Below are positions 5,936 to 59,120 of a stretch of 64,000 bases of DNA, piece by piece. The stretch is from Streptomyces hygroscopicus. GTDB lineage: Bacteria > Actinomycetota > Actinomycetes > Streptomycetales > Streptomycetaceae. The stretch lies in assembly GCA_002021875.1 (NCBI GenBank), contig CP018627.1, positions 6,448,001 to 6,512,000 on the forward strand. Direction: 5' to 3'. A program made the position numbers and the translations under genes. Numbering within the stretch: position 1 is the first letter of the stretch; every line of letters starts with the position of its first letter. The notes beneath the pieces are model-generated. The model did not search any database and was not told where the DNA came from. It saw nothing but the letters and a program-made list of their open reading frames with translations.

Positions 5936-6100
5936 AACAGGACTCAGCCCGGCGCGAGCAGTGCCCGAACCGACGAGAACAGGGCGCAGCCGCATGGGGC
6001 AGCACCCAAGCCAACGGAAGCAGGAGTCAGCCCAGTGCGGGCAGCACCCCACCAACGGGAGCAGGACACAGCCCACTGCGAGCTAGGACTCGGCACGGCG
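5936..6100. repeat. Degenerate 41-42 bp tandem repeat
   Basis: Four units begin at 5936, 5978, 6019 and 6060, and a weaker fifth runs on towards 6148. The shared core reads roughly AGCAGGAxxCAGCCCAxTGC followed by GGCAGCACCC. The end of the anti-sigma gene (GGGGGCTAGGACACCAG, with its stop as CTA on this strand) resembles the unit, so the array looks like diverged copies of the gene tail. Confidence 0.6.
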
Positions 6101-6148
6101 GCGCAGGGCCCAGCAGCCCCAGTGGGGCAGGACCCGGCGCGGTGGGGG

Positions 6149-6577
6149 CTAGGACACCAGAGGCTGGGGTGACGTCGGCCAGCTCATCCGGATCACTCCA
6201 CCGGACTCGCTGCTCGTCACCTCGACATCGTCGACGAGCCCGCTGATGACGGCGAGACCCATCTCGTCCTCGCCCTCGGCCTCGTCGTCCATCTCCGGAT
6301 GGGAGCCGGACGCCAGGGCCGCCGAGGTCGGGGATTCGTCACCGACCTCGATGGAGAACTTCTTCTCCTCCTCGGTCAGCGTCACCCGCACCGGTGCCTC
6401 CACCCCATTGCTCAGGTGGAGCCCGACCGCACGCGTGCAAGCCTCACCGACCGCGAGCCGCACCTCGTCGAGCACGGCCTCATCCACCCCCGCCCGACGC
6501 GCCACGGCGGCCGCGACAAGACGAGCGGTCCTGACGTGCTCAGGCAGCGCGCTGAAGCGGAGTTCGACGGTGGCCAT
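6149..6577 (-). CDS. Anti-sigma factor of the RsbW/SpoIIAB ATPase type, BldG partner
   Basis: A 142-residue histidine-kinase-like ATPase. The visible core is an N-terminal helix region, then LDEVRLAVGEACTRAV, the N-box segment, and VGDESP further on. Such proteins bind and hold sigma factors and phosphorylate their antagonist, here most likely BldG on its conserved serine. The ATG is chosen for GAGGGGG just upstream and the conserved start MATVELRF. It follows bldG by 92 bases that contain a hairpin, so read-through and bldG-only transcripts are both plausible, as known for the S. coelicolor bldG locus. The stop is followed by a long degenerate repeat block. Confidence 0.9.
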   Translation of the reverse strand: MATVELRFSALPEHVRTARLVAAAVARRAGVDEAVLDEVRLAVGEACTRAVGLHLSNGVEAPVRVTLTEEEKKFSIEVGDESPTSAALASGSHPEMDDEAEGEDEMGLAVISGLVDDVEVTSSESGGVIRMSWPTSPQPLVS

Positions 6578-6617
6578 GCCATCCCCCTCGGGCGTATGGG
6601 CGTGCTTATCGGGAGGG

Positions 6618-6636
6618 CCGGGCGTACGCCGCCCGG
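6618..6636 (-). terminator. Hairpin between bldG and its anti-sigma gene
   Basis: A 7-base-pair GC stem with a 5-base loop (CCGGGCG/CGCCCGG) sits midway between the two genes with no U tract. It could act as a partial terminator or processing site that gives more bldG than anti-sigma transcript. Confidence 0.5.
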
Positions 6637-6669
6637 AACCCCCTTCTGTGTCTTCCTTCGGCGATCTTG

Positions 6670-7011
6670 TCAGTCGGTCGCCGCGACAGCGTCCTCGACC
6701 GAGGTGTGAATCGGGAACACCTTGGTCAGGCCGGTGATGCGGAAGATCTTCAGAATGCGCTCCTGGTTGCAAACCAGGCGCAGCGAGCCCTCATGGGCCC
6801 GCACTCGCTTGAGCCCGCCGACGAGCACGCCGAGTCCGGTGGAGTCGAGAAAGTCGACGCCCTCCATGTCGACGACCAGGTGGTAGTTGCCGTCGTTGAC
6901 AAGCTCGACCAGCTGCTCGCGCAGCTTGGGCGCGGTGTATACATCAATCTCGCCACCGACCTCGACGACCGTGCGGTCATCGACGGTCCGAGTCGACAGG
7001 GACAGGTCCAC
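6670..7011 (-). CDS. bldG: Anti-sigma factor antagonist BldG
   Basis: A 113-residue STAS-domain protein of the SpoIIAA/RsbV family, the same length as S. coelicolor BldG and, from memory, almost identical. The phosphorylatable serine lies in FLDSTGLG at residue 57. Unphosphorylated BldG releases sigma factors from anti-sigma proteins and is needed for aerial mycelium and antibiotic production. The start is GTG with GGAGGATCC directly upstream. The gene is first in a two-gene unit with the anti-sigma factor and diverges from the helicase gene, whose start lies only 54 bases away, so the promoters overlap. Confidence 0.97.
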
Positions 7012-7065
7012 GGATCCTCCAGCACCTTGCATCGAGCGGTCGCCCCCCATGGATCGGCAGCCGCG

Positions 7066-9522
7066 ATGGCATTCAATCACTTACCAGCAGGCGTGCACGA
7101 CGCCTTGAGACCATTGTCCGTCAGACCAGTGACACACTCGGTGTCGATGGCCCACGACCAAATCCCGCGGCAGGCGGGCATACACCCCTCACCCCGGGCC
7201 GTCCTCGGTCGGCTGAGCACCGGGGCGGGCCGGGGCGCGCGCATCACTCATACGGAGCACTTGCCCCCGCGCCCGGGAACCCATGCCGACTGGCCCTCGG
7301 CGATCCGGCCGGAGGTGATCAACGCCATTCGCGCGGCCGGCATCGAGCGCCCGTGGGCCCACCAGGCGCGTACGGCCGAACACGCGCTGCGCGGGGAATC
7401 CGTGGTCGTGGCCACCGGAACCGCCTCCGGCAAGTCCCTCGCCTATCTGGCCCCCGTCCTCAGCACCCTGCTGGATGGCTCGGAGGAGCCCAGCGGCCGG
7501 GGGACGACCGCCCTTTACCTCTCCCCCACCAAGGCGCTGGCCGCCGACCAGCGCCGCGCGGTGGCCGGCTTCACCGCCCCGCTGGGCACCGGCGTCCGGG
7601 CGGCGGTCTACGACGGCGACACGCCCGTGGAGGAGCGCGAGTGGGTGCGTCAGTACGCGAACTACGTGCTCACCAACCCCGACATGCTCCACCGCGGCAT
7701 CCTGCCCGGCCACCCCAGGTGGTCCTCCTTCCTGCGCGCGCTGCGCTATGTGGTGATCGACGAATGCCACACCTACCGGGGTGTCTTCGGCTCCCATGTG
7801 GCCCAGGTGCTGCGCAGGCTGCGCCGCGTCTGTGCCCGCTACGGCTCCTCTCCCGTGTTCCTGCTCGCGTCGGCCACCGCCTCCGATCCGGCGGTCGCTG
7901 CCAGCCGGCTGACCGGCGTGCCCGTCGTGGAGATCACCGAGGACGGCTCGCCGCGCGGCGAGGTCGTCTTCGCCCTCTGGGAGCCGCCACTGACCGAGCT
8001 CCACGGCGAGCAGGGCGCCCCGGTGCGCCGCACGGCCACGGCCGAGTCCGCCGACCTGCTCACCGACCTGGCCGTCCAGGGCGTCCGTACGGTCACCTTC
8101 GTGCGCTCCCGGCGGGGCGCGGAGCTCATCGCGCTCATCGCCCAGGAACGGCTCGCGGAGGTGGACCGCTCGCTGCCGGACCGGATCGCCGCCTATCGCG
8201 GCGGCTATCTCCCCGAGGAGCGCCGCGCCCTGGAGAGGGCCCTGCACTCCGGTGAGCTGCTGGGGCTCGCCGCCACCACCGCCCTGGAGCTGGGGATGGA
8301 CATCGCCGGGCTGGACGCCGTGGTCGTGGCGGGCTACCCCGGCACCCGCGCCTCCCTGTGGCAGCAGGCGGGGCGGGCCGGGCGCACCGGCGAAGGGGCC
8401 CTGGCGATCCTGGTCGCCAGGGACGACCCGCTGGACACCTATCTCGTCCACCATCCGGACGCTCTCTTCCGGCAGCCGGTGGAGTCCACCGTCCTGGACC
8501 CGGACAACCCCTACGTCCTCGCGCCGCACCTGTGCGCGGCCGCGGCGGAGCTTCCGCTCACCGAGCCGGACCTGGAGCTCTTCGGCCCCGCCACCGAGGA
8601 GCTGATGCCGCAGTTGGAGCAGCGCAAGCTGCTGCGGCGCCGGGCGACCGCCTGGCACTGGACCCGCCGTGAGCGCGCCGCCGACCTCACCGACATCCGC
8701 GGGGCGGGCGGCAGCCCGGTCCAGGTCGTGGAGGCGGCGACCGGGCGGCTGCTGGGCACCGTGGACGCCGCGGCGGCCCACACCACCGTCCACGAGGGCG
8801 CCGTCCACCTGCATCAGGGCCGGAGCTATCTCGTCAGGCAGCTCGACCTCGACGACTCGGTCGCCCTGGTGGAGGAAGCCGCTCCGCCCTACTCGACCAC
8901 GGCCCGCGACACCACGGCGATCTCCATCCTGGAGACCACCACCGAGATCCCCTGGGGGGACGCGCGGCTGTGCTTCGGCTCGGTCGAGGTCACCAACCAG
9001 GTCGTCTCCTTTCTGCGCCGCAAGCTGATCACCGGTGAGGTCCTCGGCGAGTCCAAGCTCGACCTTCCGCCGCGCACCCTGCGCACCCGGGCCGTGTGGT
9101 GGACGGTCACCGACGACCAGCTCGAGGAGGCCCGGGTGCACCCCCAGGCCCTCGGCGGCGCCCTGCACGCCGCCGAGCACGCCTCGATCGGCATCCTGCC
9201 GCTCTTCGCCACCTGTGACCGCTGGGACATCGGCGGGGTGTCCGTCCCGCTGCACCCCGACACGCTGCTGCCGACCGTCTTCGTGTACGACGGGCACCCG
9301 GGTGGCGCGGGCTTCGCCGAGCGCGCCTTCCACACGGCCGCCCGCTGGCTGGCCGCCACCCGCGAGGCGATCGCCGCCTGCGAGTGCGAGGCGGGATGCC
9401 CGTCCTGCATCCAGTCGCCCAAGTGCGGCAACGGCAACGACCCGCTGGACAAGAAGGCCGCCATCCGCCTCCTGACGACCCTGCTCGCCGGGGCCCCGGA
9501 GCAGCCGCCGGCCGCCGAGTGA
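7066..9522 (+). CDS. DEAD/DEAH-box helicase with DUF1998 C-terminus (MrfA/YprA-like)
   Basis: The protein has 818 residues. A family N-terminus ([14 protein letters not shown]) precedes two RecA domains with Walker A GTASGKS (118-124) and the DEAH-box variant DECH (232-235); motif [12 protein letters not shown] lies in the second. The C-terminal DUF1998 region ends with the four-cysteine cluster [17 protein letters not shown]. In Bacillus the relative MrfA repairs mitomycin C lesions, so a DNA-repair role is likely. No strong ribosome site precedes the chosen ATG; it is kept because I recall this N-terminus as conserved in streptomycetes. The 3' end abuts the tail of the Tad operon in convergent orientation. 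Confidence 0.9.
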
Positions 9523-9900
9523 GCGCTCCCCGCCACCGGGTGTCGACGGCAGTGCGGTGACAGGGGTGCCCGCGGGCCCCGCCCGTGCCCTGGCCCGGAG
9601 GGTGAACGGGCCGGTGCGCACCTCCGCCGTGAGATCCGCGATCTCACCGTTCAGTGCGCATCGCACCACGCGCGCCCCCTGGGCGGAGGCCACCCGCCGG
9701 GCGAGACCGCAAGCCGTACGAGCCCCCTCCAGGCCGTGGTCCGCCGCCGCGAGCGCCGCCAGGTCGGCGGCTCCGCCCGCCCGATGGCGCGCCACCATGG
9801 CCTGCCCGGCCGCCAGTACGGCCGCGAACACCGCGCACAGGGCCGTCGCGGCCAGCGCGGTCCAGACGGTGGCCGACCCCCGATCGTCCGTCCTGCTCAC
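9523..9900 (-). CDS. TadE-like protein of the Tad operon, stop codon missing
   Basis: The GTG start overlaps the stop of the preceding tadE gene (GTGA), which shows translational coupling. The protein begins VSRTDDRGSATVWTALAATA with one N-terminal helix (about residues 10-35) typical of minor-pilin TadE/TadG proteins of the helicase/secretion neighbourhood, which are usually about 120-140 residues. Here the frame has no stop at that point: it stays open on the antisense strand of the helicase gene down to 7189. The end given is where the recognisable protein stops and helicase coding begins. The true end is either lost by mutation or displaced by a frameshift or sequencing error. Confidence 0.55.
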
Positions 9901-10466
9901 GGGACCGCCTCCCGGGCCGCACCACCCGCGTCCACCCCGCCCACCGCGTCCTCGGCGAGCGCGGCCGCCTCGCCGCGCAGATTCACCGCCAGCGGACCGG
10001 GGCCGGCGGCATGGGTCCGGACCCGCACCCGCACCAGGTCTCCCTCCTGCCACAGCTCGACCCGCGCTCCATCGGGTGCGGCCGAGCGGGCGGCGGCCAT
10101 CGCGTCCGCCCTCGGCTCCGAACGAGCCGCCGCCCTCGCCCCGGCCCTCGCCGCGTCCACGCACTGAAGCTGCGCGGCCGCGGCCATCAGCCCCCAGATC
10201 AACATCAGGGCGAACAGCGCCAGCACCGGCAGCGCGACGGCCGTCTCCGCCGTGACGAAGCCGCTGTCCCGCCCAGTGCGCTGGGGCCTTAGGACACTCC
10301 GGGGTCCTAGGACGCCTCGGGCACCCGGGACGCCGTGGGTCCTTAGGATTCTCGGGGTCCTTGGGACGCCCTGGGCCCTCGGGACACCCCTGAGCCTTGC
10401 TAAGCCCCGGGCCCTCGGGACTCCCCGCACGCCGCTCCTGGCGCGCGGGCGCGTCCGCTCGGCCAT
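9897..10466 (-). CDS. TadE family pilus-assembly protein with repetitive N-terminal extension
   Basis: A 189-residue product. The conserved part GFVTAETAVALPVLALFALM (about residues 70-95) is the class-III-signal-like segment plus membrane helix of TadE minor pilins, followed by a periplasmic domain. The ATG lies 10 bases after the stop of the DUF4244 pilin gene, so the frame starts inside the operon. The first 65 residues are an Arg/Gly/Val/Pro repeat (RGVPRA, RGVPRAQ, HGVPGARGV) encoded by degenerate 15-21-base DNA repeats. TadE proteins normally carry only 10-30 residues there, so the extension is probably a repeat expansion or untranslated, with the real start nearer the helix. Confidence 0.75.
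   Translation of the reverse strand: MAERTRPRARSGVRGVPRARGLARLRGVPRAQGVPRTPRILRTHGVPGARGVLGPRSVLRPQRTGRDSGFVTAETAVALPVLALFALMLIWGLMAAAAQLQCVDAARAGARAAARSEPRADAMAAARSAAPDGARVELWQEGDLVRVRVRTHAAGPGPLAVNLRGEAAALAEDAVGGVDAGGAAREAVP
10270..10440. repeat. Degenerate short tandem repeat at the tadE 5' end
   Basis: Repeated copies of GGTCCTTAGGAC, GGTCCTAGGACGCC, GGGACGCC and CCTCGGGAC, about 15-21 bases apart, fill the start of the tadE frame. The block resembles the tail repeats near 6080-6160. Confidence 0.55.
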
Positions 10467-10476
10467 CCCCGGCGCC

Positions 10477-10674
10477 TCAGAACTGCGCATCGAGCGCCCG
10501 TCCGATGACCGACTGCAGCGCACCGCTGACGGTCCCGCTGGTCACCACCTTGTAGAGCACCGCGGCGAAACCGCATGCCGCGATCGTTCCCATCGCGTAC
10601 TCGGCGGTGGCCATGCCTGCCTCGGACTTCGCACGTGCCGCCGCGTACCGCCGTGCCCACCACTGCTTCACCAT
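10477..10674 (-). CDS. DUF4244 Flp-like pilin
   Basis: A 65-residue protein. The cytoplasmic head MVKQWWARRYAAARAKSEAG is followed by MATAEYAMGTIAACGFAAVL, a class III signal/pilin helix with the Glu typical of Flp pilins (GMATAEYA), then a short tail. It is the likely structural subunit of the Tad system. AAGGGGG lies about 5 bases upstream of the ATG. It lies between the tadC-like gene and tadE in one operon; the 120-base gap upstream holds short repeats. Confidence 0.9.
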   Translation of the reverse strand: MVKQWWARRYAAARAKSEAGMATAEYAMGTIAACGFAAVLYKVVTSGTVSGALQSVIGRALDAQF

Positions 10675-10753
10675 GTCGGCCCCCTTGCCCTGTCCGCGGT
10701 GTCACTGACCGCGGTTCGTCGTTCGTCGTGCTGTTGTCGTGCCGCTGTCGTTC

Positions 10754-10783
10754 GCTGGTGTGATTGGTGCTGGTGTGATTGGT
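10754..10783. repeat. 15-bp perfect tandem duplication after tadC
   Basis: GCTGGTGTGATTGGT occurs twice head to tail, with a shortened third copy (GGTGGTC) beyond, in the gap between the tadC-like stop and the pilin gene. Confidence 0.85.
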
Positions 10784-10797
10784 GGTCTCGTCGGTGT

Positions 10798-11616
10798 TCA
10801 GGGGCCGTCGCCCATCAGGCCGCGGGCCAGCCCGATCATCACCGGGGCCAGGCCGACCAGCAGGAACGCGGGGAGGAAGCAGCCCGCGAGCGGTGCGTTG
10901 ACCAACACACCGGTGCGGTCGGCCCGTTTCATCGCCGCCCGCCCCTGCTCGGCCCGGCATTCGGCCGCCAGCCGGGACACCGGCTCCACCGCCGGAGCGC
11001 CCGTTGTCCCGGCGCGTTCCATGGCGCGTGCCAGACCCTGCGCTCCGGGCAGAGCCCCGATGCGCCCCCAGGCGTGGGCCGGTTCACCTCCCAGCCGCAG
11101 CTCCGCCGCGGTCTGGGCAAGCCGCTCGCCGACCGGGCCGCCCAGCGAACCTCCCACCGCCTCCGCCGCCTTCCGCGGGCCCGCTCCGGCCGCCAGGCAG
11201 GCGGTCAGCAGATCGGCGGCCAGCGGAATTTGGCGCGCGGCGAGGGCCTCGATGTGCCGGTCACGACCGGAGCGCCCAGCGGTGGCCCGGCGGTACCGCT
11301 GCCACCACCAGAGGCCGCAGGCCGCGGTGAGCCCCAGCACCCACCCCGGCGGCCCTCCGACGAGGAGAACGGCGATCGTCACAGCGCCGCATGGCGCGGC
11401 CCAGAGGGGCAGCGCGCCCTCAGTGGCCCCGGCGCGCCGGCGCCGCCACGGCCAGGCCCGCCTCCGCCGCCGGTCCCTCGTGCCCCGAAGCAGCGCCGCC
11501 GACCGTCGTCGGGCGCCCCGCTCCCGATGGGCCTCGACCATCGCCATCACCGTGCACAGGACCGCCGCCAAGACGGACAGCGAAATCCCCAGGCTGTGGA
11601 CACCCTCAGCGCTCAT
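10798..11616 (-). CDS. Type II/IV secretion system F protein (TadC-like)
   Basis: A 272-residue membrane protein with a T2SSF domain: N-terminal helix, paired helices in the middle ([31 protein letters not shown]), the conserved cytoplasmic loop [19 protein letters not shown], and a C-terminal helix pair ending [13 protein letters not shown]. It forms the inner-membrane platform with TadB. The ATG overlaps the tadB stop by 11 bases, so the genes are translationally coupled. Confidence 0.9.
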
Positions 11617-12532
11617 CGGCCACCGGCCGCCCCGGCTCACGCGCCGCCCGCACCATCCGGCCGGTCCACACCAGGCCCGCCCACTCCACCAGGCCGCCCA
11701 CCAGCAGGCAGCTCAGCCCGGCCGGGGTGTGCAGCAGCTCATGCAGTGGGTTGGAGCCCAGCAGCCCGCCCAGCGCCAGCCCGACGACGGGCAGCACCGC
11801 CAGTGCGACGGCGGTGGCCTTGGCCCCCGCCAGCTTGGCGTCCAGGCTGTCCCGCTGGTCCCGCTCGGCGCGCAGCGCCGCCGCCACCCGGTCGAGCCCC
11901 GCCGCCAGCCCCGCTCCCTCGTCGACCGCCACCTGCCAGCAGGCCGCGACCCCGCTCAACCCCTCGGCGCCCGGCAGCCGGGCCACCCTCCGCAGCGCGT
12001 CCGGCACTTCACCGCCGAACCGCGCCGCGGCCGTCACCAGCCCCCAACGCTCCCTCAGGTGCCCGGGGTCCACCGCCAGCAGCGCCTCGCCGGGATGCCG
12101 CCCGGCCCGCAGCTCGCCCGCCACGGTGACACAGAGGTCGATCACCCCGGCGGCGCGCCGCACACGGTCCCGCTCGCGCCGCCGGGACCGCAGCCACCGG
12201 CCGACGACCGGCGTGGCCACCACCGCCCCGAGCAGCGGCAGAACCGACGCGCCCAGCAGCGCGATCACACATCCGACCGGCAGACACAGCAACTCACGCC
12301 CCATCCGCCCGCCGTACCCGACCCGCCAGCGCTCCCGCAGCCAGGCGGCCGTCTCGGACAGCCGCCGCACCAGGTCGGGCCCCACCGGCTCGACGGGTCC
12401 GCCGCCCGCGAACAGCAGCCTCACCCGGCGCAGCTCCCGGTCCCGCCCGGAGAGCAGCCATACGGCCGCCCCCGCGCACAGCATCGCGGCGCACAGCGTC
12501 AGCGCACCCCGGTCCGCTCCCGCGCCCGTCAT
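11606..12532 (-). CDS. Type II/IV secretion system F protein (TadB-like)
   Basis: A 308-residue polytopic protein: an N-terminal helix ([19 protein letters not shown]), a central helix pair ([22 protein letters not shown]), a T2SSF cytoplasmic domain, and C-terminal helices ([20 protein letters not shown]). It is the inner-membrane platform partner of TadC and the TadA ATPase. The ATG start sits in an ATGA overlap with the tadA stop. Confidence 0.9.
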
Positions 12533-13695
12533 GCCGCTCCTCCGCCCCGTGCGCACAGCCGCTGGAGCCGCTGCCAGCCCGCCGCCCGTTCGAAGCCCTC
12601 CGGGCCCCAGACGGCCGCGGGGACGGTCGTGACGAAGCCCGCCCGGTCCCGGTCCAGCACATGCAGCTCGGCGATCCTGCGCCGCCCGCCGCGGTCCCGC
12701 ACCAGATGGACCAGGACCGACAGCGCCGCCGCCAACTGGCTGTGCAGCGCGGCCCGGTCCAGACCCGCGGTCGAGCCGAGCGCCTCCAGCCGCGCGGGAA
12801 CGTCGGCCGCCGTATTGGCGTGGACGGTGCCACAGCCGCCCTCATGGCCGGTGTTCAAGGCCCCCAGCAGATCGGTGACCTCGGCGCCTCTCACCTCCCC
12901 GACCACCAGCCGGTCGGGGCGCATCCGCAGCGCCTGCCGCACCAGATCCCGCAGGGTGACCTGGCCTCGGCCCTCCTGGTTGGCAGGGCGGGTCTCCAGC
13001 CGGACCACATGCGGGTGGTCGGGCCGGAGCTCGGCCGAGTCCTCGGCGAGGACGATTCGGTCCTGCGGGCCGACCAGCCCCAGCAGGGTGCTCAGCAGCG
13101 TTGTCTTGCCCGAGCCGGTGCCGCCGCTGATCAGGTAGGACAGCCGGGCGTCCAGCATGGCCCGCAGCAGATGCGCGCCGCCCGGCGGCACCGTCCCGGC
13201 CGCCTCCAGCTCCGCGAGGGAGAACGCCCGGGGGCGCACGACTCGCAGCGACAGACAGGTCGAGCCGACCGCGACCGGAGGGAGCACCGCATGCAGCCGG
13301 GTCCCATCCGGCAGCCGGGCGTCCACCCACGGCCGGGCGTCATCCAGCCGCCGCCCGGCCACCGCGGCGAGCCGCTGCGCGAGCCTGCGCACGGCGGCCG
13401 CGTCCACGAAGGTGACGGCCGTGCGCTCCAGCCCCGAACCCCGGTCCACCCACACCTCATCGGGGGCGGTGACCAGGACGTCCGTGACATCGGGGGCGGC
13501 CAGCAGCGGCTCCAGGGGCCCGGTGCCGACCAGTTCCGAGCGCAGCGCCTCCACCACACCGAGTACCTCGGTGTCGCCGAGCAGCCGCCCCTCCTCACGC
13601 AGGGCCGCCGCCACCCGGGCGGGCGTGGGCTCCGCGCCGCTTCCGGCGAGCCGCAGCCGCACCGCGTCCAGCAGATCCGGCGATACGACGCTCAT
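12529..13695 (-). CDS. tadA: Secretion ATPase TadA/CpaF
   Basis: A 388-residue hexameric ATPase that powers Tad pilus assembly at the cytoplasmic face. Features: N-terminal domain with [15 protein letters not shown] (about 71-85), Walker [10 protein letters not shown] (191-199), Asp box [16 protein letters not shown], Walker B region [12 protein letters not shown] and His box CGTVHANTA. The ATG lies in an ATGA overlap with the ssd stop. The operon order ssd-tadA-tadB-tadC-pilin-tadE-tadE-like matches the actinobacterial Tad locus beside a DUF1998 helicase, as in mycobacteria. Confidence 0.95.
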
Positions 13696-14801: not shown

Positions 14802-15254
14802 GATCCCCTCCCATATCCGTTACGCGCTCTCACTCCCGCGAACAGCGAGTGCGAGCACCGCGGAGAATCACCGTGCTGCGATCCAGAAAATCTTGGGGAT
14901 CTTGGTCCAAAACTGTGGACAACTCATCACTTGTGAATATCCCAGTCACCTAAAGCAGTGACTTCCGGAGAGCAGCCTAGCGATTACGTACGGTTACCGC
15001 CCAAGCTGTGGAGAGGCGGGGCCACACGGGCCCGAGGGAGGGGATCAAGATCCCGTGAGAACGCCGAAAACGCGTCCGGACATGCGACGACCCCCGCCGG
15101 GGGGGAGAGCGGGGGTCGTCCCCACGGCCGACTCGGGGGGGGAGGAGTCGGGCCGGGTTAGCACGGTCGCGAACGATCCGTGACTTCCATGGTGTACCCG
15201 AGAGCCTTCTCAGGCAAACCCACGCGCCTGAGCTTACGCCGAATGGTGGGCCCT
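14802..15254. other. Divergent intergenic region with strong hairpin
   Basis: No gene was seen. Next to ssd the sequence is AT-richer (AAAATCTTGGGGATCTTGG, then TGTGGACAACTCATC) and probably carries the operon promoter, with an inverted repeat GTCAC-N8-GTGAC near 14945. Nearer the HAD gene there is a 12-base-pair inverted repeat (15086-15097 with 15109-15120). Confidence 0.6.
15086..15120. other. Strong GC hairpin upstream of the HAD gene
   Basis: Arms GACGACCCCCGC and GCGGGGGTCGTC form a perfect 12-base-pair stem with an 11-base G-rich loop. Both flanking genes point away from it, so it is not an ordinary terminator. It may end an unseen short transcript or form a leader structure for the HAD gene. 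Confidence 0.55.
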
Positions 15255-26897: not shown

Positions 26898-26973
26898 CAG
26901 TACCTCCGGCGCGGCCCGGGACCCCGGCGACACCGGAAACCCCTGGTAGCACGCTCGGCATCACCGGCATCAC

Positions 26974-27070
26974 CCCGCTTTGGAGGGCCTCTCCGCTCTG
27001 GAGGGCCACACTCCGCCGGGCGCGTCCGCTCCGGAGGGCATATCCCTCGGCCACCGCGCTAGAGGGCACA
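26974..27070. repeat. Tail repeats of the MarP-like gene
   Basis: The last bases of the protease gene, read here as CCGCGCTAGAGGGCACA with the stop as CTA, recur as TCCGCTCCGGAGGGCAT (27025), CCGCTCTGGAGGGCCAC (about 26993) and CCCGCTTTGGAGGGCC (26975). The stop triplet is changed in every copy. Confidence 0.7.
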
Positions 27071-30722: not shown

Positions 30723-30767
30723 CGCCGGACGGAACCGCCGGACGGAACGGATACGCGAAAACGGAAC

Positions 30768-32913: not shown

Positions 32914-32993
32914 CCAGTCCGCGACTTCGAGGCCCGTCAGTTTCGAGGCCCGTCAGTCCGCGACCTCGACGCTCGCTAGTCGGCGACCTCGAC
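32914..32993. repeat. Tail repeats of the RidA gene
   Basis: The gene end, read on this strand as CTAGTCGGCGACCTCGAC, is echoed by TCAGTCCGCGACCTCGAC (32953) and CCAGTCCGCGACTTCGAG (32914), with an intervening duplicated TTCGAGGCCCGTCAG. One copy preserves a stop triplet (TCA) in place of CTA. Confidence 0.75.
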
Positions 32994-39684: not shown

Positions 39685-39853
39685 TGTGTGGACGGGATGG
39701 CGACGCTGCGATCCTTACGGTTGCCATGGCAACAGGCTGACGACACAGAGCAAGCAAGCACAACGCAACGCACACAGGCGTGGGCCACGGCGGAACGCAC
39801 AGCACACGCCACCTAACGCAACGCGAGGGGCACGCCCAGCTCCCGAGCGAGAG

Positions 39854-39914
39854 CTACCCGCCCGCGAGGGATCCGCCCGCGAGCTACCAGCCCGGCTACC
39901 CGCCCGCGAGCTGC
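39854..39914. repeat. Tail repeats of the YqeY-like gene
   Basis: The gene end with its stop, CTACCCGCCCGCGAG on this strand (39896-39910), is repeated exactly at 39854-39868. A third, partial copy (CCGCCCGCGAGCT) lies at 39873-39885. Confidence 0.85.
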
Positions 39915-41479: not shown

Positions 41480-41553
41480 CGGGGTGTAGCGCAGCTTGGC
41501 AGCGCGCTTCGTTCGGGACGAAGAGGTCGTGGGTTCAAATCCCGCCACCCCGA
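41480..41553 (+). tRNA. tRNA-Pro (anticodon CGG)
   Basis: A 74-base cloverleaf: acceptor CGGGGTG pairs with CACCCCG, the anticodon arm CTTCG-TTCGGGA-CGAAG gives anticodon CGG, and the T loop is GTTCAAAT. CCA is not encoded. A hairpin terminator follows at once. Confidence 0.97.
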
Positions 41554-44675: not shown

Positions 44676-45262
44676 CCGTAAATCTGGCCAAGGGCCAGCG
44701 GATCAACCTGAGCAAGTCCGACGGGGGCGAGCTCAGCGCGGTGCGCATGGGCCTGGGCTGGCAGGCCGCGCCGCGCAAGGGGCTGCTCGCCCGGTTGACC
44801 GCCAAGGAGATCGACCTGGACGCCTCGGCCGTGCTCTTCGCCGGGCGGGAGGCCGTCGACGTCGTGTTCTTCCAGCATCTGACGAGCGACGACGGATCCG
44901 TACGGCACACCGGCGACAACCTCGTCGGTGGCACCGGTCAGGGCGGCGACGATGAATCGATCCTGATCGATCTGCAGCGCGTTCCGGCCCATGTCGATCA
45001 GATCCTGTTCACGGTGAACTCCTTCACCGGGCAGACCTTCGCCGAGGTGCAGAACGCCTTCTGCCGTCTGATCGACGAGACCAACGGACAGGAGCTGGCC
45101 CGCTACACCCTGAGCGGCGGCGGCCCCTACACGGCCCAGATCATGGCCAAGGTGCACCGCGAGGGCGGGACGGGCGGGGCCTGGCAGATGTCGGCGATCG
45201 GCGCGCCCGCCACCGGCCGGACGTTCCAGGATCTGCTGCCGGTCCTCTCCTCCCACCTCTGA
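44672..45262 (+). CDS. TerD family protein (TerZ-like)
   Basis: A 196-residue protein: MTVNLAKGQRINLSKSDGGE, GLGWQAAPRKGLLARLT (a basic insertion absent from the first TerD), EIDLDASAVLFAG and HTGDNLVGGTGQGGDDE for calcium, then AEVQNAFCRLIDETNG. It is coupled by ATGA overlap to the membrane-protein gene. The end of the gene, with the stop codon, is repeated twice downstream. Confidence 0.93.
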   Translation: MTVNLAKGQRINLSKSDGGELSAVRMGLGWQAAPRKGLLARLTAKEIDLDASAVLFAGREAVDVVFFQHLTSDDGSVRHTGDNLVGGTGQGGDDESILIDLQRVPAHVDQILFTVNSFTGQTFAEVQNAFCRLIDETNGQELARYTLSGGGPYTAQIMAKVHREGGTGGAWQMSAIGAPATGRTFQDLLPVLSSHL

Positions 45263-45321
45263 CCTGACAAGCCCTCCCACCTCTGATCCGACAAGCAAGG
45301 TCCTCCCCGCATCTGACAAGC
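45248..45321. repeat. Tail repeats of the second TerD gene
   Basis: Three units: TCCTCCCACCTCTGACCTGA(CAAGC) holding the real stop (45248-45272), CCTCCCACCTCTGATCCGA(CAAGC) (45273-45296) and TCCTCCCCGCATCTGACAAG(C) (45301-45321). TGA is kept in each copy. Confidence 0.85.
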
Positions 45322-48777: not shown

Positions 48778-48860
48778 GGTGAACGGGAGGGGCAGGGGCT
48801 GGGGTCGGAGAAGTGGGGCCGGAGAGGTGGGGACCGGAGGGGTGTAACCCGGGGGAAGGG
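48778..48860. repeat. G-rich degenerate repeats after the P450 gene
   Basis: Units close to GGGGCCGGAGAGGTGGGGAC and GGGGTCGGAGAAGT recur with GGGAGGGG variants. No gene was seen; strong one-strand G bias suggests possible quadruplex structure. Confidence 0.5.
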
Positions 48861-48940
48861 GCGGAATCGCGCACGGAGGAGCTACGGACGGGCGCTGGAC
48901 GGAAGTAGTTCAAGCTGCTGCCCGGCATCACCCACGAGCA

Positions 48941-48980
48941 GCCAGAAGCGTCCAGAAGCGTCCAGAAGCACTCAGAAGCG
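48941..48980. repeat. 10-bp tail repeats of the SnoaL-like gene
   Basis: Four tandem decamers: GCCAGAAGCG, TCCAGAAGCG, TCCAGAAGCA and CTCAGAAGCG; the last contains the gene's real stop (TCA on this strand). Confidence 0.88.
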
Positions 48981-49346: not shown

Positions 49347-49452
49347 CAGCTCCCCCTCGGTGTACGGCCCCCGTCCATCCCGCCGGGAACGTTATCCACA
49401 GGCGCGGGGCGACGCCAGCGCGCATGTCGGGATGCGGCGCAGAATGGTGAGC

Positions 49453-52138: not shown

Positions 52139-52290
52139 ACCACCACGGTACGGGCTTCGCGCCGGGGTCCCGGCGGCGGGGCCGTCCCGCAGACCCCCGC
52201 GCGCCGGCCCCGGGATCCCGCCGCGGAGCGTCAGGAGCGCCGCAGCGGCCTCCCGGGGGAGGCTCCCCAGGCGGCAGCTGCCCCACTGCC

Positions 52291-52330
52291 CCAGAGGGAC
52301 GCCAGCAGATCTAGAGGGACGCCAGCAGAC
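52291..52330. repeat. 20-bp tail duplication of the sigma-factor partner gene
   Basis: CTAGAGGGACGCCAGCAGAC (52311-52330, with the real stop as CTA) is preceded by CCAGAGGGACGCCAGCAGAT (52291-52310): 18 of 20 bases match and the stop triplet is changed. Confidence 0.92.
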
Positions 52331-53720
52331 CGGTGCGGTAGATCGTTCCGGCGCAGGCGCCACCGATCGTCACACTCGCCGCGGCCGGGTCGCCCGCCTC
52401 CGGTGTGTGGCTGACCAGGACGCTCGCGTCCTGCGGCTCACCGCCGCCACCACCGCCGCCGCCGCCCGGCTCACCTGTGCTGGGGTTGTCCTGCGGCCCG
52501 TCCTGGCCCGGGTCCGTGGACGGATCGGGGGTCGGTGTGCCGGTGGTGGAGCAGCCGCTGGTGCCGCCGCCCGCCGTCGGGATCCAGGCGAACTTGACCT
52601 CGTACGCCTGGCCGGGCTTGAGGATGAGCGTGCCCGGCTGGAGGGAGGGGTCGGGCAGCCCTGCCGCCGCGTCCCCCGCCGTATGGTCGACGACGAGGAT
52701 CCGCGAGGCGTCCGCACCGCCCTGGGCGCTCGCGCCCACCGAGCCGCTGCCCTCGACCGTGCAGGCGCTGTCCGAGACGTTCGCGATGCGGAACGAGCCG
52801 TAGACCCGCCCCTCGGCGTCGGCCGCTCCGACCGATCCGGCGCCACCGCTGGTGAGCTGGGCGCGGCTGCAGGTGGGGGAGGTGGCGTTCAGCGTGTTGG
52901 AGGGGTCGGGGGCGGTGCCGCCGGGGCCGCCCTCCTCCTCGCCCTTCGGCGGCTTGTCCTTCCCCTTGTCCTTGTCCTTGTCGCCCTTGTCCTGCTCGAC
53001 CGTGTCGGCGGGCCCGTCGGAGCCCTTGCCACCACTGCCCTCGCCGTGCCGGCCGCCGCTGGTCTCAGGGGTGCGGTGGCTGCTGGCGGCATTGGCCGGG
53101 CGGTCGTCCGCGCCGTTGCTGGTGGTCGCGACGTGCACCAGCGCCGGTACGGCCGCGCAGCCGAGCACGACCGCGGCCGCGGCCCCGACCAGGGCCTGGC
53201 GCCGCCGCGCACGGCGGGCGGGCACGGCGCGCCGCAGATGGTCGAGGGAGTCGGAGGACGGTTCGAGATCGTCGACGGCGCGGTGCAGCAGCCGCCGCAG
53301 CGCCTCCTCGTCCTCACCGCCGGGCCCGCCGCCGTCGAGCTGAATGCGGAGGGGCGTCACCCGCCCCTGCCCGGACGCAGCGGACTTCCTGGCCCCTGCG
53401 GGCCTGGTGGACTCACGGGTCCCTGCGGACTCCCCGGCTCCCGCAGCCCCTGCGGACTCACCGGCCTCCGCAGACTCACCGGCCTCCGCAGACCCCGCGG
53501 ACCCACCGGACTCACCGGCCTCCGCGGACCCGCCGGACTCCTCGGCTCCCGTGGAATCCGCAGGCCCCGCAGACCCCGCGGACTCACCGGCCTCCGTGGA
53601 ATCCGTCGGCTCTACCGATTCCATCGGCTCCGTGGACTCCACTGGTTCTCGGGATTCGGGCTCATGGCCCGTCCGCCGCCCGGGGTCCTCCGGGTCCGGC
53701 GTATGTGTGATGTGGTTCAT
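52311..53720 (-). CDS. Membrane protein coupled to an ECF sigma factor, possible anti-sigma factor
   Basis: A 469-residue protein. Residues 1-110 are an acidic Glu/Ser/Gly/Ala repeat region (EAGESGGSAGSAEAGES), encoded by CTCACCGGCCTCCGCAGA-like DNA repeats. A helical stretch (EEALRRLLHRAVDDLEPSSD, about 135-160) could be a sigma-binding segment. One membrane helix (LVGAAAAVVLGCAAVPALV) follows, then a Lys/Asp/Gly linker and an external beta-rich domain. No zinc motif is present. The start overlaps the sigma gene stop (ATGA), so an anti-sigma role is inferred from position and topology. Confidence 0.75.
   Translation of the reverse strand: MNHITHTPDPEDPGRRTGHEPESREPVESTEPMESVEPTDSTEAGESAGSAGPADSTGAEESGGSAEAGESGGSAGSAEAGESAEAGESAGAAGAGESAGTRESTRPAGARKSAASGQGRVTPLRIQLDGGGPGGEDEEALRRLLHRAVDDLEPSSDSLDHLRRAVPARRARRRQALVGAAAAVVLGCAAVPALVHVATTSNGADDRPANAASSHRTPETSGGRHGEGSGGKGSDGPADTVEQDKGDKDKDKGKDKPPKGEEEGGPGGTAPDPSNTLNATSPTCSRAQLTSGGAGSVGAADAEGRVYGSFRIANVSDSACTVEGSGSVGASAQGGADASRILVVDHTAGDAAAGLPDPSLQPGTLILKPGQAYEVKFAWIPTAGGGTSGCSTTGTPTPDPSTDPGQDGPQDNPSTGEPGGGGGGGGGEPQDASVLVSHTPEAGDPAAASVTIGGACAGTIYRTGLLASL
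53390..53660. repeat. Coding tandem repeats in the sigma-partner gene
   Basis: Units near CTCACCGGCCTCCGCAGA (18 bases) and CCGCGGACTCCACCGG recur many times and encode the acidic Gly/Ser/Glu repeat of the protein N-terminus. Confidence 0.75.
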
Positions 53721-54370
53721 GCCGGAGCCTCCATGGCGACGCGGAGCGCCGCGATGCCGCGCGAGCCGTACGCCTTGACCGAGCCGAGCGATATGCCCAG
53801 GGTCTCGGCCACCTGGGCCTCGGTCATATCGGCGAAGTAGCGCAGCACGAGAACCTCGCGCTGACGGCGCTGAAGTCCCCTCATCGCCTTGATCAGTTGA
53901 TCGCGTTCAAGCTGTTCGTACGCCCCCTCCTCGGCACTGGCCATATCGGGCATCGGCTTGGAGAGCAGCTTCAGCCCGAGGATGCGCCGACGCAGCGCGG
54001 AGCGGGAGAGATTGACGACCGTCTGCCGCAGATAGGCAAGGGTCTTCTCGGGATCCCGGACTCTCTTGCGCGCCGAGTGCACACGGATGAACGCTTCCTG
54101 CACGACATCCTCGCAGGACGCGGTGTCGTCGAGAAGGAGCGCGGCGAGACCGAGCAGCGACCGGTAATGGGCGCGGTAGGTCTCGGTGAGGTGATCGACT
54201 GTGGTGCCCGCTGCCATCGCGTCGTCAGTGTCCTCGCGCCCTGTTGTGATGTGCGCGGGGCGGGCCGTCGGCCATGGCGCGATCACCGGCATGCCACCTG
54301 GCGTACGCGGGGGGCGTACCGCCGCGCCGCCGCGCCCTGGAACCGTTGCGATGCCGAATACCTCTGCCAC
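53717..54370 (-). CDS. SigE-family ECF RNA polymerase sigma factor
   Basis: A 217-residue protein from a GTG; a shorter product from the internal ATG MAAGTTVDHL (residue 52) is equally plausible. Region 2 is YRAHYRSLLGLAALLLDD to CEDVVQEAFIRVH, and region 4 is LQRRQREVLVLRYFADMTEA with helix-turn-helix VAETLGISLGSVKAY. It directs RNA polymerase to a small regulon, probably in envelope stress given its membrane partner downstream. The N-terminal 50 residues are poorly defined. From memory it is highly conserved between streptomycetes in this position. Confidence 0.88.
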   Translation of the reverse strand: MAEVFGIATVPGRGGAAVRPPRTPGGMPVIAPWPTARPAHITTGREDTDDAMAAGTTVDHLTETYRAHYRSLLGLAALLLDDTASCEDVVQEAFIRVHSARKRVRDPEKTLAYLRQTVVNLSRSALRRRILGLKLLSKPMPDMASAEEGAYEQLERDQLIKAMRGLQRRQREVLVLRYFADMTEAQVAETLGISLGSVKAYGSRGIAALRVAMEAPA

Positions 54371-54792
54371 GCCTGTTGGACACGCCGCCCCCTGTCAGGG
54401 TTGTACGCGTGAGGCACCGCTTTTGACGATGCGTTCAATGCCCCCATGCGCATCAATTCTTCCCCAATGCCCCAGTTATCCCTGCGCCCGCTGCGGGGCG
54501 GCTGGAAAGACGCTCCCCGCCCACTGCCGGTTGCAGCGGGCGGGGAGCGAATACACCGATCAGATCAACGGCCCAGCTCAGCTGGTCCAGGCCAGTGACA
54601 TACGCACAGGATATTCACATCTGCCGGTCGACGCACTGGTGAAACGTCACTTTAAGACGGCCGCTCACCTTAGGGCGGTCCGGGCCCCTCACTTGACCAC
54701 GGATCGTCGCCCGGCAGCGGGGCCCACTTCGTGGTGGATCCTGCTTCGTGGCGGGTCCTACTTGGTGGTGACGTGACGGCCCTGCGGCCCTC
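54371..54792. other. Intergenic region between the sigma gene and asd
   Basis: No gene was seen. It holds a long hairpin (54511-54549), the probable sigma-gene promoter in the AT-richer part near 54420-54470, and three degenerate repeats near 54727-54772 (CACTTCGTGGTGGATCCTG, GCTTCGTGGCGGGTCCT, ACTTGGTGGTGACG) just beyond the asd stop. Confidence 0.6.
54511..54549 (-). terminator. Hairpin terminator downstream of ask-asd
   Basis: A 12-base-pair GC stem (54511-54522 with 54538-54549) continues, after one mismatch, with CTGC/GCAG. It lies 244 bases past the asd stop, in front of the sigma-factor gene. Confidence 0.75.
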
Positions 54793-55884
54793 TCACCTCG
54801 CGGCGGCCCCGCCCGCCAGCTCCGCCGCGACGACCTCCGCGATCTGCGCGGTGTTCAGCGCCGCGCCCTTGCGCAGGTTGTCGCCGCAGACGAACAGCTC
54901 CAGCGCCCTCGGGTCGTCCAGCGACCGCCGCACCCGGCCCACCCAGGTCGGGTCGGTGCCCACGGCGTCGGCGGGGGTGGGGAATTCGCCCTCCGCCGGG
55001 TTGTCGCACAGCACCACACCGGGGGCGCCCGCCAGGATCTCGTGCGCCGCCTCGACCGTCACCTCGTTCTCGAACCGCGCGTGCACGGCCAGCGAATGGG
55101 TGGTGATCACGGGCACCCGGACACAGGTCGCGGTGACCCTCAGCTCCGGCAGCCCCAGAATCTTGCGGGACTCGTTGCGCACCTTGAGCTCCTCGGAGGA
55201 CCAGCCGTCCTCCTTGAGCGAACCGGCGAACGGCACCACATTGAGCGCCATCGGCGCCGGGAACGGCCCGGTGTCGCCCACCGCCCGCCGTACGTCCCCG
55301 GGATGGGTGCCCAACTCCGTACCCGCGACCAGCGCGAGCTGCTCGCGCAGGGCGTCGATGCCTTCCTTGCCCGCGCCGGAGACCGCCTGGTACGAGGAGA
55401 CGATCAGCTCGCTCAGCCCGAACTCGGCGTGCAGCGCGCCCATCGCGACGATCATCGACAGGGTGGTGCAGTTGGGGTTGGCGATGATGCCGCGCGGGCG
55501 GACACGGGCCGCGTGCGCGTTCACCTCCGGCACCACCAGGGGGACATCGGGGTCCATCCGGAACGCGCCGGAGTTGTCGACGGCCACCGCGCCCTTGCTC
55601 GCCGCGATGGGCGCCCACCGCGCCGAGATCTCGTCCGGTACGTCGAACATCGCGACGTCGACGCCCTCGAACGCCTCCTCGCTCAGCGCGATGACCTCAA
55701 CCTGCTCACCCCGGACGGCCAGCTTCCGGCCGGCCGAGCGGGGCGAGGCGATCAGCCGGATCTCGCCCCAGATGTCGGCGCGCTCCGAGAGTATCGAGAG
55801 CATGACGGTGCCGACGGCGCCGGTGGCACCGACGACCGCGAGGGTGGGCTTGTCGCCCCCGGCGGCACCGCCATGACCGATCAT
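54793..55884 (-). CDS. asd: Aspartate-semialdehyde dehydrogenase
   Basis: A 363-residue enzyme that reduces aspartyl phosphate to aspartate semialdehyde with NADPH, at the branch to lysine/diaminopimelate, threonine and methionine. The NADP-binding [13 protein letters not shown] lies near residue 17, the catalytic Cys139 in [15 protein letters not shown] in the middle, and the active-site His in TTHS. The ATG overlaps the ask stop (ATGA), so ask and asd form one operon. Confidence 0.96.
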
Positions 55885-56402
55885 CGGCCAGTCCCTCCGT
55901 AAACCACCGCTTCATCGCTGTCGCTGTCCAGGCCGAAGGCGCTGTGCACGGCCACCACCGCGTCCTTCACATCGTCGGCGCGGGTGACGACCGAGATGCG
56001 AATCTCGGAGGTCGAGATCAGCTCGATGTTGACCCCGGAGTTCGACAGCGCCTCGAAGAAGGTCGCGGTGACCCCCGGATTGGTGCGCATTCCGGCACCG
56101 ATCAGGGAGATCTTGGCGATCTGGTCGTCGTAGCGCAGCGAGTCGAAGCCGATCAGCGACTTCGCCTTGGTCAGCGCCTCCATCGCCCGGTGGCCGTCCG
56201 TCTTCGGCAGCGTGAAGGAGATGTCGGTCAGCCCGGTCGACGCGGCGGAGACGTTCTGCACCACCATGTCGATGTTGATCTCGGCGTCGGAGATGGTGCG
56301 GAAGATGGCCGCGGCCTCACCCGGCTTGTCCGGCACCCCGACGACCGTGACCTTGGCCTCGGACGTGTCGTGCGCGACCCCGGAGATGATCGCCTGCTCC
56401 AT
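55881..56402 (-). CDS. Aspartate kinase beta subunit from an internal start
   Basis: An in-frame ATG at codon 254 ([20 protein letters not shown]) is preceded by GGAGAAGAAGG at good spacing. The 173-residue product consists of the two ACT regulatory domains. It matches the position of the known internal lysC-beta start in Corynebacterium (MEEAVLTGVATDKSEAKVTV, recalled), so an alpha2-beta2 enzyme is expected. Confidence 0.75.
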
Positions 56403-57161
56403 GCCTTCTTCTCCTTCTCCCGCTTCCGGCCGGTTGCGCACCCAGGTGCCCTGGTGGCCGGAGAAAGACGACCGTACGTGGATGGGGATGTTGTACCGGC
56501 GCGCGTACTCCACGCAGCGCAGGTGCAACACCTTGGAACCGCTCGCGGCGAGCTCCAGCATGTCCTCGTACGGAATCTCGTTGATCTTGCGAGCCTTCTT
56601 CACCACGCGCGGATCGGCGGTGAACACGCCGTCCACATCGGTGTAGATCTCGCACACCTCGGCGTCCAGGGCCGCGGCCAGCGCGACCGCGGTGGTGTCC
56701 GAACCGCCCCGGCCGAGGGTGGTGATGTCCTTGCTCTTCTGGGACACGCCCTGGAAGCCCGCGACGATCGCGACCGCGCCGAGCTCGAGCGCGTCACGGA
56801 TGCGGCCCGGCGTGACGTCGATGATCCGTGCTTTGTTGTGGACCGCGTCGGTGATGACTCCCGCCTGGCTGCCGGTGAACGACAGCGCCTCGTGACCGAG
56901 GTTTTTGATCGCCATCGCCAGCAAGGCCATGGAGATCCGCTCTCCCGCGGTCAGCAGCATGTCGAATTCGCGCCCAGTAGGAATCGGGGATACCTGCTCG
57001 GCGAGATCGATCAGCTCGTCCGTCGTGTCGCCCATCGCGGAGACCACGACGACCACCTGGTGGCCGTTCTTCTTGGCTTCCACGATTCGCTTGGCGACCC
57101 GCTTGATGCCTTCGGCATCGGCAACGGAGGAGCCTCCGTACTTCTGCACGACAAGGCCCAC
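55881..57161 (-). CDS. ask: Aspartate kinase (alpha subunit)
   Basis: A 426-residue protein. The amino-acid kinase domain carries [12 protein letters not shown] at its start, [18 protein letters not shown] and [15 protein letters not shown]; two ACT domains (about 265-420) bind feedback inhibitors, with [17 protein letters not shown] and [14 protein letters not shown]. It makes aspartyl phosphate for the lysine/threonine/methionine pathway. The start is GTG. In actinobacteria the same gene also yields a beta subunit from an internal start, for which there is clear evidence here. Confidence 0.96.
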
Positions 57162-57522
57162 GTGCGCTCCTCGCAGCTCTCAATAATGCGGTCGGCTCAG
57201 TTTAACGAGCGGCCGGAATTTGCCCTCCTAATATCACATAGCGAGACGAATGCCTCACAAAGTGATCAAGGAGGGCAAGGAGACAGGGGGCATCACACGA
57301 CGCATACGTCCATGCGTCCGCGAGATTCCCCGCATCCCTCCCACCCGCTCAGCGACGAACCCTTCCCGCTCGCCGCCGAAGCACACGGGAACGTAACCCA
57401 GCTCACAGGCTCGGACGGGTCGCTGCGGGTCGCGGGTCGCCCCCGCGGGCCGTTTCGGGTCTTCCCGTCGGCCGTCCCGGGCACGCCTCGGCGCGGCCCC
57501 GAGCGGCCGTCCCGGGCACGCC
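57162..57522. other. Intergenic region upstream of ask
   Basis: No gene was seen. The part next to ask is AT-rich (CCTAATATCACATAGCG near 57226-57242) and probably holds the promoter. The rest, behind the DUF5063 stop, contains a second copy of that gene's last 35 bases. Confidence 0.6.
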
Positions 57523-57538
57523 TCAGCGCGGCCCCGAG
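57469..57538. repeat. 35-bp tandem duplication across the DUF5063 stop
   Basis: 57469-57503 and 57504-57538 differ at one base. The copy inside the gene has CTCAGCGC, which supplies the TGA stop; the downstream copy has CTCGGCGC and lacks it. Both begin CGGCCGTCCCGGGCACGCCT. Confidence 0.95.
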
Positions 57539-58188
57539 TGCAGGCCGAGCGGTCCCGCGATCTCCGCCGCCATGACCCGGCCGGCCTCCTCCGCGAGCTC
57601 CTCGTCACCGCCCGCGTTGCTGTCCGTGTCCAGGCCGTCCAGCTCGTCCAGCGGGCTGTCCAGCCGTACGTGCGCGACCAGCGACTGCAGCGCGCGCAGG
57701 GCCGCCGAGGCGGTCGTCCCCCAGTTGGAGAGGTACGAGAACTGCCACCACCACAGCGCCTCACTGATCCGGCCCTCGCGGTAGTGCGCCATCCCGTGCC
57801 GCAGATCGGTGATGATCCCGGCCAGATCGTCGGAGATCCGGCAGGCGACGGGCTGGCTGCGCGGCACGTACGGGTCGAAGACCTCCGAGTAGATGTCCAC
57901 CGGCTCCAGCAGCTGGGCGAAGCGCTCACGCAGCTCGTCGACGTCCGGCTCCGGGCCGACGTCCGGTTCGTACCGCTCGTCCGGAACGAAGTCCTCGTGC
58001 GCGCCGAGCCGGCCGCCCGCGAGGATCAGCTGGGACAGCTCGAGGAGCAGAAACGGCACAGCGCTGTCCGGCTCATCCCCCTTGGCGACTTCGGTGACCG
58101 CGACGATGAAGCTCTCGATCTGGTCGGAGATCTGGACCGCGAAGTCGTCCGGGTCCGGGTGGGCGTCGTGCAGCGTTGCGTCAGACAT
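57523..58188 (-). CDS. DUF5063 family protein
   Basis: A 221-residue acidic, helical protein starting [20 protein letters not shown]. Conserved parts include [18 protein letters not shown] and [20 protein letters not shown]. No catalytic motif was recognised. It overlaps the recR stop by 8 bases and is conserved next to recR in streptomycetes, as I recall, so a link to RecR or to expression coupling is possible. Its stop codon arose in, or was altered within, a 35-base tandem duplication. Confidence 0.88.
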
Positions 58189-58792
58189 CGAGAAGTCTTC
58201 TCCCTTCGAAGGCACGACCCAGCGTGACCTCGTCGGCGTACTCCAGGTCTCCACCGACAGGGAGGCCGCTGGCCAGGCGAGTGACCTTCAAACCCATGGG
58301 CTTGATCATGCGCGCGAGGTACGTGGCGGTGGCTTCGCCCTCCAGATTCGGATCGGTGGCCAGGATGAGCTCCGTAACCGTCCCGTCCGCGAGCCGCCCC
58401 AGCAGCTCCCTGATCCGCAGATCGTCCGGGCCCACGCCCTCGATGGGGCTGATCGCCCCGCCGAGCACGTGATAGCGGCCCCGGAACTCACGCGTCCGCT
58501 CGATCGCGACGACGTCCTTCGGTTCCTCGACCACGCAGATGATCGCAGGATCGCGGCGGGGGTCCTGGCAGACGCGGCACTGCTCGGCCTCGGCGACGTT
58601 CCCGCAGACCGCACAGAACCGCACCTTCTCCTTGACCTGGGTCAACGCATGCGCGAGGCGGCGGACGTCGGTGGGCTCGGACTGCAGGATGTGGAAGGCG
58701 ATCCGCTGCGCGCTCTTGGGACCGACGCCGGGCAGCCTGCCCAACTCGTCGATAAGGTCCTGGACCACGCCCTCGTACACGCCTTCATCCAA
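58181..58792 (-). CDS. recR: Recombination mediator RecR
   Basis: A 203-residue protein: helix-hairpin-helix [18 protein letters not shown] (19-36), Cys4 zinc finger at 60, 63, 72 and 75, Toprim domain with [16 protein letters not shown] and [17 protein letters not shown], and the C-terminal Walker-like [20 protein letters not shown]. With RecO it loads RecA at gaps. Start uncertain: ATG as given, or a GTG 12 bases in (VYEGVVQDL) that matches the recalled S. coelicolor start. It belongs to the dnaX-ybaB-recR-DUF5063 order. Confidence 0.96.
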
Positions 58793-59120
58793 TCTCGCGC
58801 CGCCGCGCGGTGGCTGTACTGCATATGAATATTCGGTTGCGCCGCACCCTCACTGCCGGGGCCGCCGTGGTCCCGCGGCCGGGCCCGGGGAGCCGGGTGG
58901 TCCCCGAGGAGCCCCGGGGAGCCCTGGGGACCCGGTGGAATTACGGAACCCTATGAGATTGGAGAGCCCGGCGACCCGAAAACCCAAGGAACCGAGGACC
59001 CGAGGATCCGGAATCCCGGGGACCCGGGAGACCCGAGGGACCCAGGAGACCCGAAGGACCCAGGAGACCCGAAGGACCCAGGAGACCCGAAGGACCCAGG
59101 AGACCCGAAGGACCCGAGGA
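58793..59120. other. Repeat-filled spacer between YbaB and recR
   Basis: No gene was seen. From about 58965 on it consists of diverged 9-base words GACCCGAGG/GACCCAGGA, ending in a perfect 18-base array. A copy resembling the YbaB gene end (GGACCCGAGGATCCGGAA) lies near 58996. The 150 bases next to recR hold its promoter or leader. Confidence 0.65.
59039..59110. repeat. Perfect 18-bp tandem repeat, four copies
   Basis: GACCCAGGAGACCCGAAG is repeated four times without a mismatch and is flanked by degenerate half-units. It ends 11 bases before the YbaB stop. There are no spacers, so it is a minisatellite, not a CRISPR. Confidence 0.96.

Follow-up and report, generated by a model that had tools for sequence, protein, structure and literature searches.

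Does some process act on the 3′ ends of bacterial genes, copying their last codons into the DNA that follows? The question is raised by a stretch of 64,000 nt from Streptomyces hygroscopicus (contig CP018627.1, positions 6,448,001 to 6,512,000; hereafter the window, at its full length), where the first-pass annotation had noticed that the last 10–40 coding bases of about nine unrelated genes, here called by their positions in the window, seemed to be repeated just downstream, and had proposed a slippage or duplication process acting at gene ends. The recurrence of duplication held up, since copies are specific to lineages and vary from one relative to the next; the proposed action at the 3′ end itself did not. 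The pattern is very probably the edge of a general turnover of tandem duplications in the spacers 3′ of genes, with the gene end not being a target.

Our sample comprised the window and 80 further stretches of 20 kb, i.e. 1.664 Mb of the 12.0-Mb Streptomyces genome (G000), in which a codon-based, non-curated caller placed 1363 genes. Tails came from the 812 genes whose 3′ spacer measured 60 nt or more, and the last 40 nt of each were aligned without gaps (match +1, mismatch −2) to at most 200 nt downstream, with a threshold score of at least 12. Because some long called gaps contain missed genes, gap-size limits were set for each test and other gaps dropped (60–600 nt for spacer coverage, coverage in relatives, adjustment and core/arm tests; 120–800 nt for the stop-centred profile and the uniform model; 100–800 nt for a later test of core, arms and relatives). 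The threshold was reached by 30 of the 812 tails, 25 of which match to within 3 nt of the gene end, compared with 8 of 3247 tails mispaired with the spacers of other genes, 12 of 849 gene interiors and 6 of 874 start sides. The tail similarity thus exceeds the mispaired or shuffled and the internal-gene controls that had been suggested for it. Dinucleotide-shuffled spacers likewise had a tandem-repeat coverage of 0–0.04%, as against 2.8–10.4% in real spacers, and the repeats in question consist of two or more adjacent similar copies that turn over between related lineages. A comparison with Escherichia coli (50 kb, 22 spacers) gave zero repeats at threshold, in a sample too small and of too different a composition to weigh. 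The window itself was richer than the rest of the sample (6 of 41 tails versus 24 of 771; Fisher p 0.003), yet it had been chosen because the pattern was noticed there, and a local hot spot was not retained as an explanation.

The nine sites did not fare equally. Tail copies were recovered at six of them (32976, 39896, 45262, 48972, 52311 and 57523), while at 6149, 27059 and 59121 the tail match is at chance level. Five sites are strong, with scores of 17 at 52311 (lag 20), 15 at 39896 (lag 42), 14 at 45262 (lag 24) and 13 at both 32976 (lag 23) and 57523 (lag 35); the sixth tail of the window above threshold, at 2144, has its match 15–36 nt inside the gene at a lag of 150 and does not reach the stop. 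The score at 48972 was just 8, yet a 10-bp array extends into the coding tail. Scores at the remaining three were 7 (6149), 8 (27059) and 8 (59121), and among the mispaired tails at least 9 was reached by 263 of 3247 and at least 10 by 85 of 3247; arrays lie 3′ of these genes too (Table 1), with tail copying not demonstrable. The description of the genes as belonging to unrelated families was borne out by Pfam matches over the cut-off for eight of the nine, that at 52311 having a sub-threshold DUF4232 match only, and units and tails look different from site to site when compared by eye.

The control missing from the earlier test design is intergenic DNA. With one random point taken per spacer, scores of at least 12 were found at 4 of the 52 points in convergent spacers, 14 of the 231 in codirectional and 1 of the 134 in divergent ones, so that the convergent and codirectional points together (18 of 283) score at least as frequently as tails. 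A process directed at gene ends was dropped as a candidate because the stop-centred profile has no peak. In this metagene of 497 stops, coverage by first repeat arms was 9.0–11.4% across the ten bins that span the first 100 nt after the stop, and inside the gene it was 7.5% over the last 10 coding nt, 3.5% from −20 to −10 and 1.2% from −30 to −20; the last 10 coding nt had a 95% confidence interval (CI) of 5.3–9.7, compared with 9.9% (CI 8.3–11.8) for +10 to +110. Coverage was lower on the promoter side, with 0.7% at starts and 3.7% upstream of starts (647 starts). A model of uniform duplication plus within-gene background predicted 9.1, 6.3, 4.2 and 3.0% for four successive 10-nt bins inside the gene, where 7.5, 3.5, 1.2 and 1.7% were observed; uniform duplication therefore predicts at least the observed tail copies, and tails hold, if anything, fewer copies than expected. 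The lags of the 30 tail events had no reading-frame preference (10, 7 and 13 for remainders 0, 1 and 2 modulo 3). An apparent gene-end mechanism can thus arise when tails are compared with mispaired, shuffled or within-gene sequence and not with the intergenic control that the question requires.

Turnover was visible in relatives, which comprised 11 of the 392 same-genus genomes searched (the source genome included) and named genomes of the S. violaceusniger group; an orthologue was kept only if its stop lay within 60 nt of the expected position. Identity over the last 300 nt of the genes was 88–99.7% in these genomes, and the 3′ spacers often differed and had repeats of their own. At 45262 the second tail copy occurs only in the source genome and is absent in 10 of 10 orthologues shown; in S. 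rugosispiralis a unit of ∼24 bp starting at the stop is present three times, and in G112, G387 and S. endocoffeicus once. Copies resembling the gene's own tail were found at 57523 in S. rugosispiralis, S. antioxidans, G375, G399, G071 and G112 (by eye in the named genomes), and were absent at that end in S. violaceusniger. G071 has the 20-bp-lag duplication at 52311 in identical form, and G399 and S. niphimycinicus have weaker versions; it is therefore neither an assembly error nor brand new. Of 148 spacers, 92 could be placed in G071 and 80 could be placed in G399; the codirectional one at 53361–53716 is probably coding. Against G071, 15 tandem-type insertions or deletions (indels) of at least 8 bp were flagged, of which 10 lay entirely within called spacers, 3 lay entirely within coding ends, 1 crossed a stop and 1 crossed a start. 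Without the 3 coding cases, 4 fell in 4.5 kb of convergent, 7 in 10.2 kb of codirectional and 1 in 6.4 kb of divergent spacer.

We therefore favor an explanation in which short tandem duplications, with units mostly of 10–40 bp, would form and be replaced all along the DNA 3′ of genes, where constraint is weak, in this Streptomyces genome and in its relatives. Where a duplicated unit by chance crossed a stop codon, the first copy would keep the gene intact; from this geometry, stop-spanning duplications should survive because the first copy leaves the gene end unchanged. The second copy, now outside the gene, would resemble a repeated tail and then decay. Tandem-repeat coverage was 10.4% in convergent, 7.3% in codirectional and 2.8% in divergent spacers, counting only repeats wholly inside the spacer, so that the 3′ spacers of this Streptomyces are heavily loaded with short tandem duplications (roughly one tenth of convergent-spacer bases in the sample). 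Purifying selection would cause most of the difference between 3′ and 5′ flanks. Identity to G071 dropped from 0.98 to ∼0.90 directly after stops and was kept at 0.97–0.98 to ∼50 nt before starts, and tighter constraint on upstream flanks may account for some of the difference in repeats. The same order of spacer types was found in G399, G071, G375 and two groups of named Streptomyces loci; this comparison also takes repeats reaching out of the spacer, which gives higher values (13.9, 8.9 and 3.0% in G000).

The copies themselves may come from homology-free joining, e.g. Ku-type end joining of staggered breaks, together with slippage between short matches. In 94 clean two-copy spacer duplications, 59 had at most 2 bp of homology at the joint, and at least 3 bp were found in 35 (37%) compared with 11.5% in simulation; the set still holds at least one orthologous pair and one probably coding repeat (L178, the same contig as G387, was left out of it, and both were kept, in different groups, in the coverage comparison). 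These figures point to homology-free joining mixed with slippage, although partial third copies complicate the picture. Purely homology-driven slippage was not supported as the sole cause, given the 59 joints, and may contribute in part given the excess of longer homologies. End joining of staggered breaks with protruding ends is known to make short tandem duplications in mouse embryonic stem cells treated with Cas9 nickases, where duplications formed without Ku80 or Lig4 are almost all associated with microhomology, unlike those made by end joining (PMC5730883). Three Ku-family matches over the curated cut-off were present in the source genome, and Ku-type joining is, by analogy, a lead as to the source of the duplications; what that report demonstrates in mouse cells we infer for Streptomyces spacers.

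Several observations weigh against turnover under selection as the whole account. The uniform model over-predicts copies 10–40 nt inside genes, and the copied stop triplet is still a stop in 20 of 27 events, an outcome that the match criterion favors. Ends scoring at least 12 in the source genome tend to reach that score in relatives as well (6 of 28, versus 1 of 155 for other ends), and without the two closest relatives the figures are 2 of 17 versus 1 of 96 (p 0.06). The periods of spacer repeats, at 108, 57 and 86 for remainders 0, 1 and 2 modulo 3, over-represent multiples of three, perhaps through missed coding DNA. Convergent coverage was below codirectional in G112 and equal to it in G387 (9–23 spacers each), with divergent lowest in both. 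The divergent deficit persists after adjustment for length and GC content (z −4.1), both of which matter too. In the core (2.9–9.2 Mb), 156 of 534 convergent or codirectional spacers had repeats, compared with 5 of 48 in the arms (p 0.004), a figure based on ten arm stretches only; because uniform duplication predicts no difference between core and arms, the scarcity in the arms counts against it. Other indels relative to G071 numbered 10 in 4.5 kb of convergent, 51 in 10.2 kb of codirectional and 25 in 6.4 kb of divergent spacer, and relative to G399 27 in 3.9 kb, 43 in 8.7 kb and 11 in 4.7 kb, with divergent lowest in the latter genome. Since the order of these non-tandem indels differs between G071 and G399, constraint alone is not a clean account, and the scarcity of repeats in divergent spacers and arms is only partly explained.

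A possible, if less probable, addition is that breaks or slippage become more frequent in 3′ spacers through transcription termination or convergent transcription, so that the rate of duplication itself is higher there; this would be compatible with general turnover and would add to it. The ranking of convergent over codirectional over divergent coverage points this way, as do the adjusted divergent deficit, the higher frequency in the core, a coding score per codon slightly higher in genes with 3′ repeats (158 versus 415 genes, p 0.02), and the order of tandem-type indels relative to G071, which the other indels do not share. However, 5′ flanks are more conserved, so that selection could yield the same order, adjusted convergent coverage is not significantly above codirectional (z 1.3), and the events are few. 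A more specific form, in which transcription leaving core genes (through termination zones and into convergent spacers) raises the duplication rate by way of Ku-joined breaks, with 3′ spacers continually rebuilt from the preceding gene tails, we regard as rather doubtful. The unevenness across spacer types and from core to arms provides a handle on whether transcription shapes the rate of small duplications in bacteria.

Retention of the copies for a function at gene ends, be it as spare stops, as terminators or as regulatory repeats, appears improbable. The stops kept in copied triplets, and ends that have repeats in several species, would be expected of such copies, but the profile lacks a stop peak and copies differ or are missing in close relatives; spare in-frame stops in particular were rejected since frame bias is absent among the 30 tail events. 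It is more improbable still that the genes were formerly longer, with in-frame C-terminal repeats shortened by a new stop and a pseudo-coding tail left behind. Repeats inside genes do have periods in multiples of three (279 of 288), and 10 of 30 tail lags are divisible by three, but the latter is the chance expectation, and the three copies in S. rugosispiralis at 45262, against one in three relatives, indicate gain in the spacer. No longer orthologue matching the downstream copies was found at the five ends compared (stops more than 60 nt away dropped). Assembly artefact or chance similarity, although three of the nine sites score at chance level, is very improbable for the whole given the excess over mispaired tails and shuffled spacers, the identical 52311 duplication in the separate G071 assembly, and tail copies in several named assemblies.

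The ends of mycobacterial interspersed repetitive units (MIRUs) can overlap stop and start codons. With regard to known systems, the spacer tandem repeats described here are best read as an already known kind of sequence (PMC4060949, PMC2734929). They are the same kind as the close direct repeats and short tandem duplications described in prokaryotic intergenic DNA (PMC4060949), a report whose available passages treat neither position relative to stop codons nor convergent versus divergent spacers, and whose main text does not name Streptomyces. Mycobacterial variable number tandem repeats (VNTRs) and MIRUs, such as VNTR3239 between rnc and fpg1, are likewise actinobacterial spacer arrays; as here, they differ sharply between relatives despite conserved coding sequence, the VNTR3239 spacer being just 1–54 bp outside the tuberculosis complex (PMC2734929). 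MIRUs have units of 40–100 bp distributed over 41 places (PMC2734929), whereas the units in our loci look unrelated to one another by eye. The TAACTGA direct repeats of Beggiatoaceae are also abundant in bacterial intergenic DNA, but constitute one fixed heptamer at many loci (PMC4679880), while here the unit varies by locus. Among the matches listed in the open-access literature, judged by title and the start of the abstract, none was a published description of gene-tail copies.

Table 1. Repeat features of the window, with positions counted from its first base.
Feature	Position	Strand	Basis
24-bp tandem duplication across the stop (45260–45262) of a TerD-domain gene	45249..45296	+	Repeat and tail scoring, orthologues
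Two 17-bp arms, 20 bp apart, across the stop of the 52311 gene	52293..52329	-	Tail scoring, relatives
15-bp-period array from the 3′ spacer into the tail of a YqeY-family gene (39896)	39851..39912	-	Repeat and tail scoring, Pfam
Tail copy of a YjgF-family gene (32976), lag 23; perfect 16-bp tandem pair at 32926–32957, deeper in the spacer	32926..32993	-	
35-bp duplication with one mismatch across the stop of a DUF5063 gene (57523)	57469..57538	-	
10-bp-period array, 3.9 copies, into the tail of a SnoaL-like gene (48972)	48942..48980	-	
Likely 19-nt tail copy, gene at 62495	62475..62513	-	16/19 bases, lag 20, score 10
18-bp-period array, 5.6 copies, beginning right after the stop of a YbaB-family gene (59121); tail copy unconvincing	59020..59120	-	
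Array of 41-bp period, spacer 3′ of 6149; tail matched no better than by chance	5938..6080	-	
Array of 18-bp period, spacer 3′ of 27059; tail matched no better than by chance	26971..27009	-	
Perfect 13-bp tandem pair in a convergent spacer, without coding bases	30723..30748	.	
Perfect 15-bp tandem pair in a called spacer, without coding bases	10754..10784	.	

The likely copy at 62495 was absent from the first-pass list. Searched against Rfam at gathering thresholds, the window yielded just a tRNA (41480–41553, + strand) and a small signal recognition particle RNA (62230–62328, − strand), so that the sites are not explained by described RNA families. A long array with periods of 9–45 bp at 53409–53641 lies inside a 469-codon frame (52311–53720) and is probably a coding repeat. 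Just 11 of the 392 genomes gave a good alignment to the gene at 52311. The gene upstream of it lies in a stretch of ∼580 bp (53717–54298) that was matched at 81–90% identity over most of its length in 23 of 24 same-genus relatives, and in the 24th, G001, over just 97 bp.

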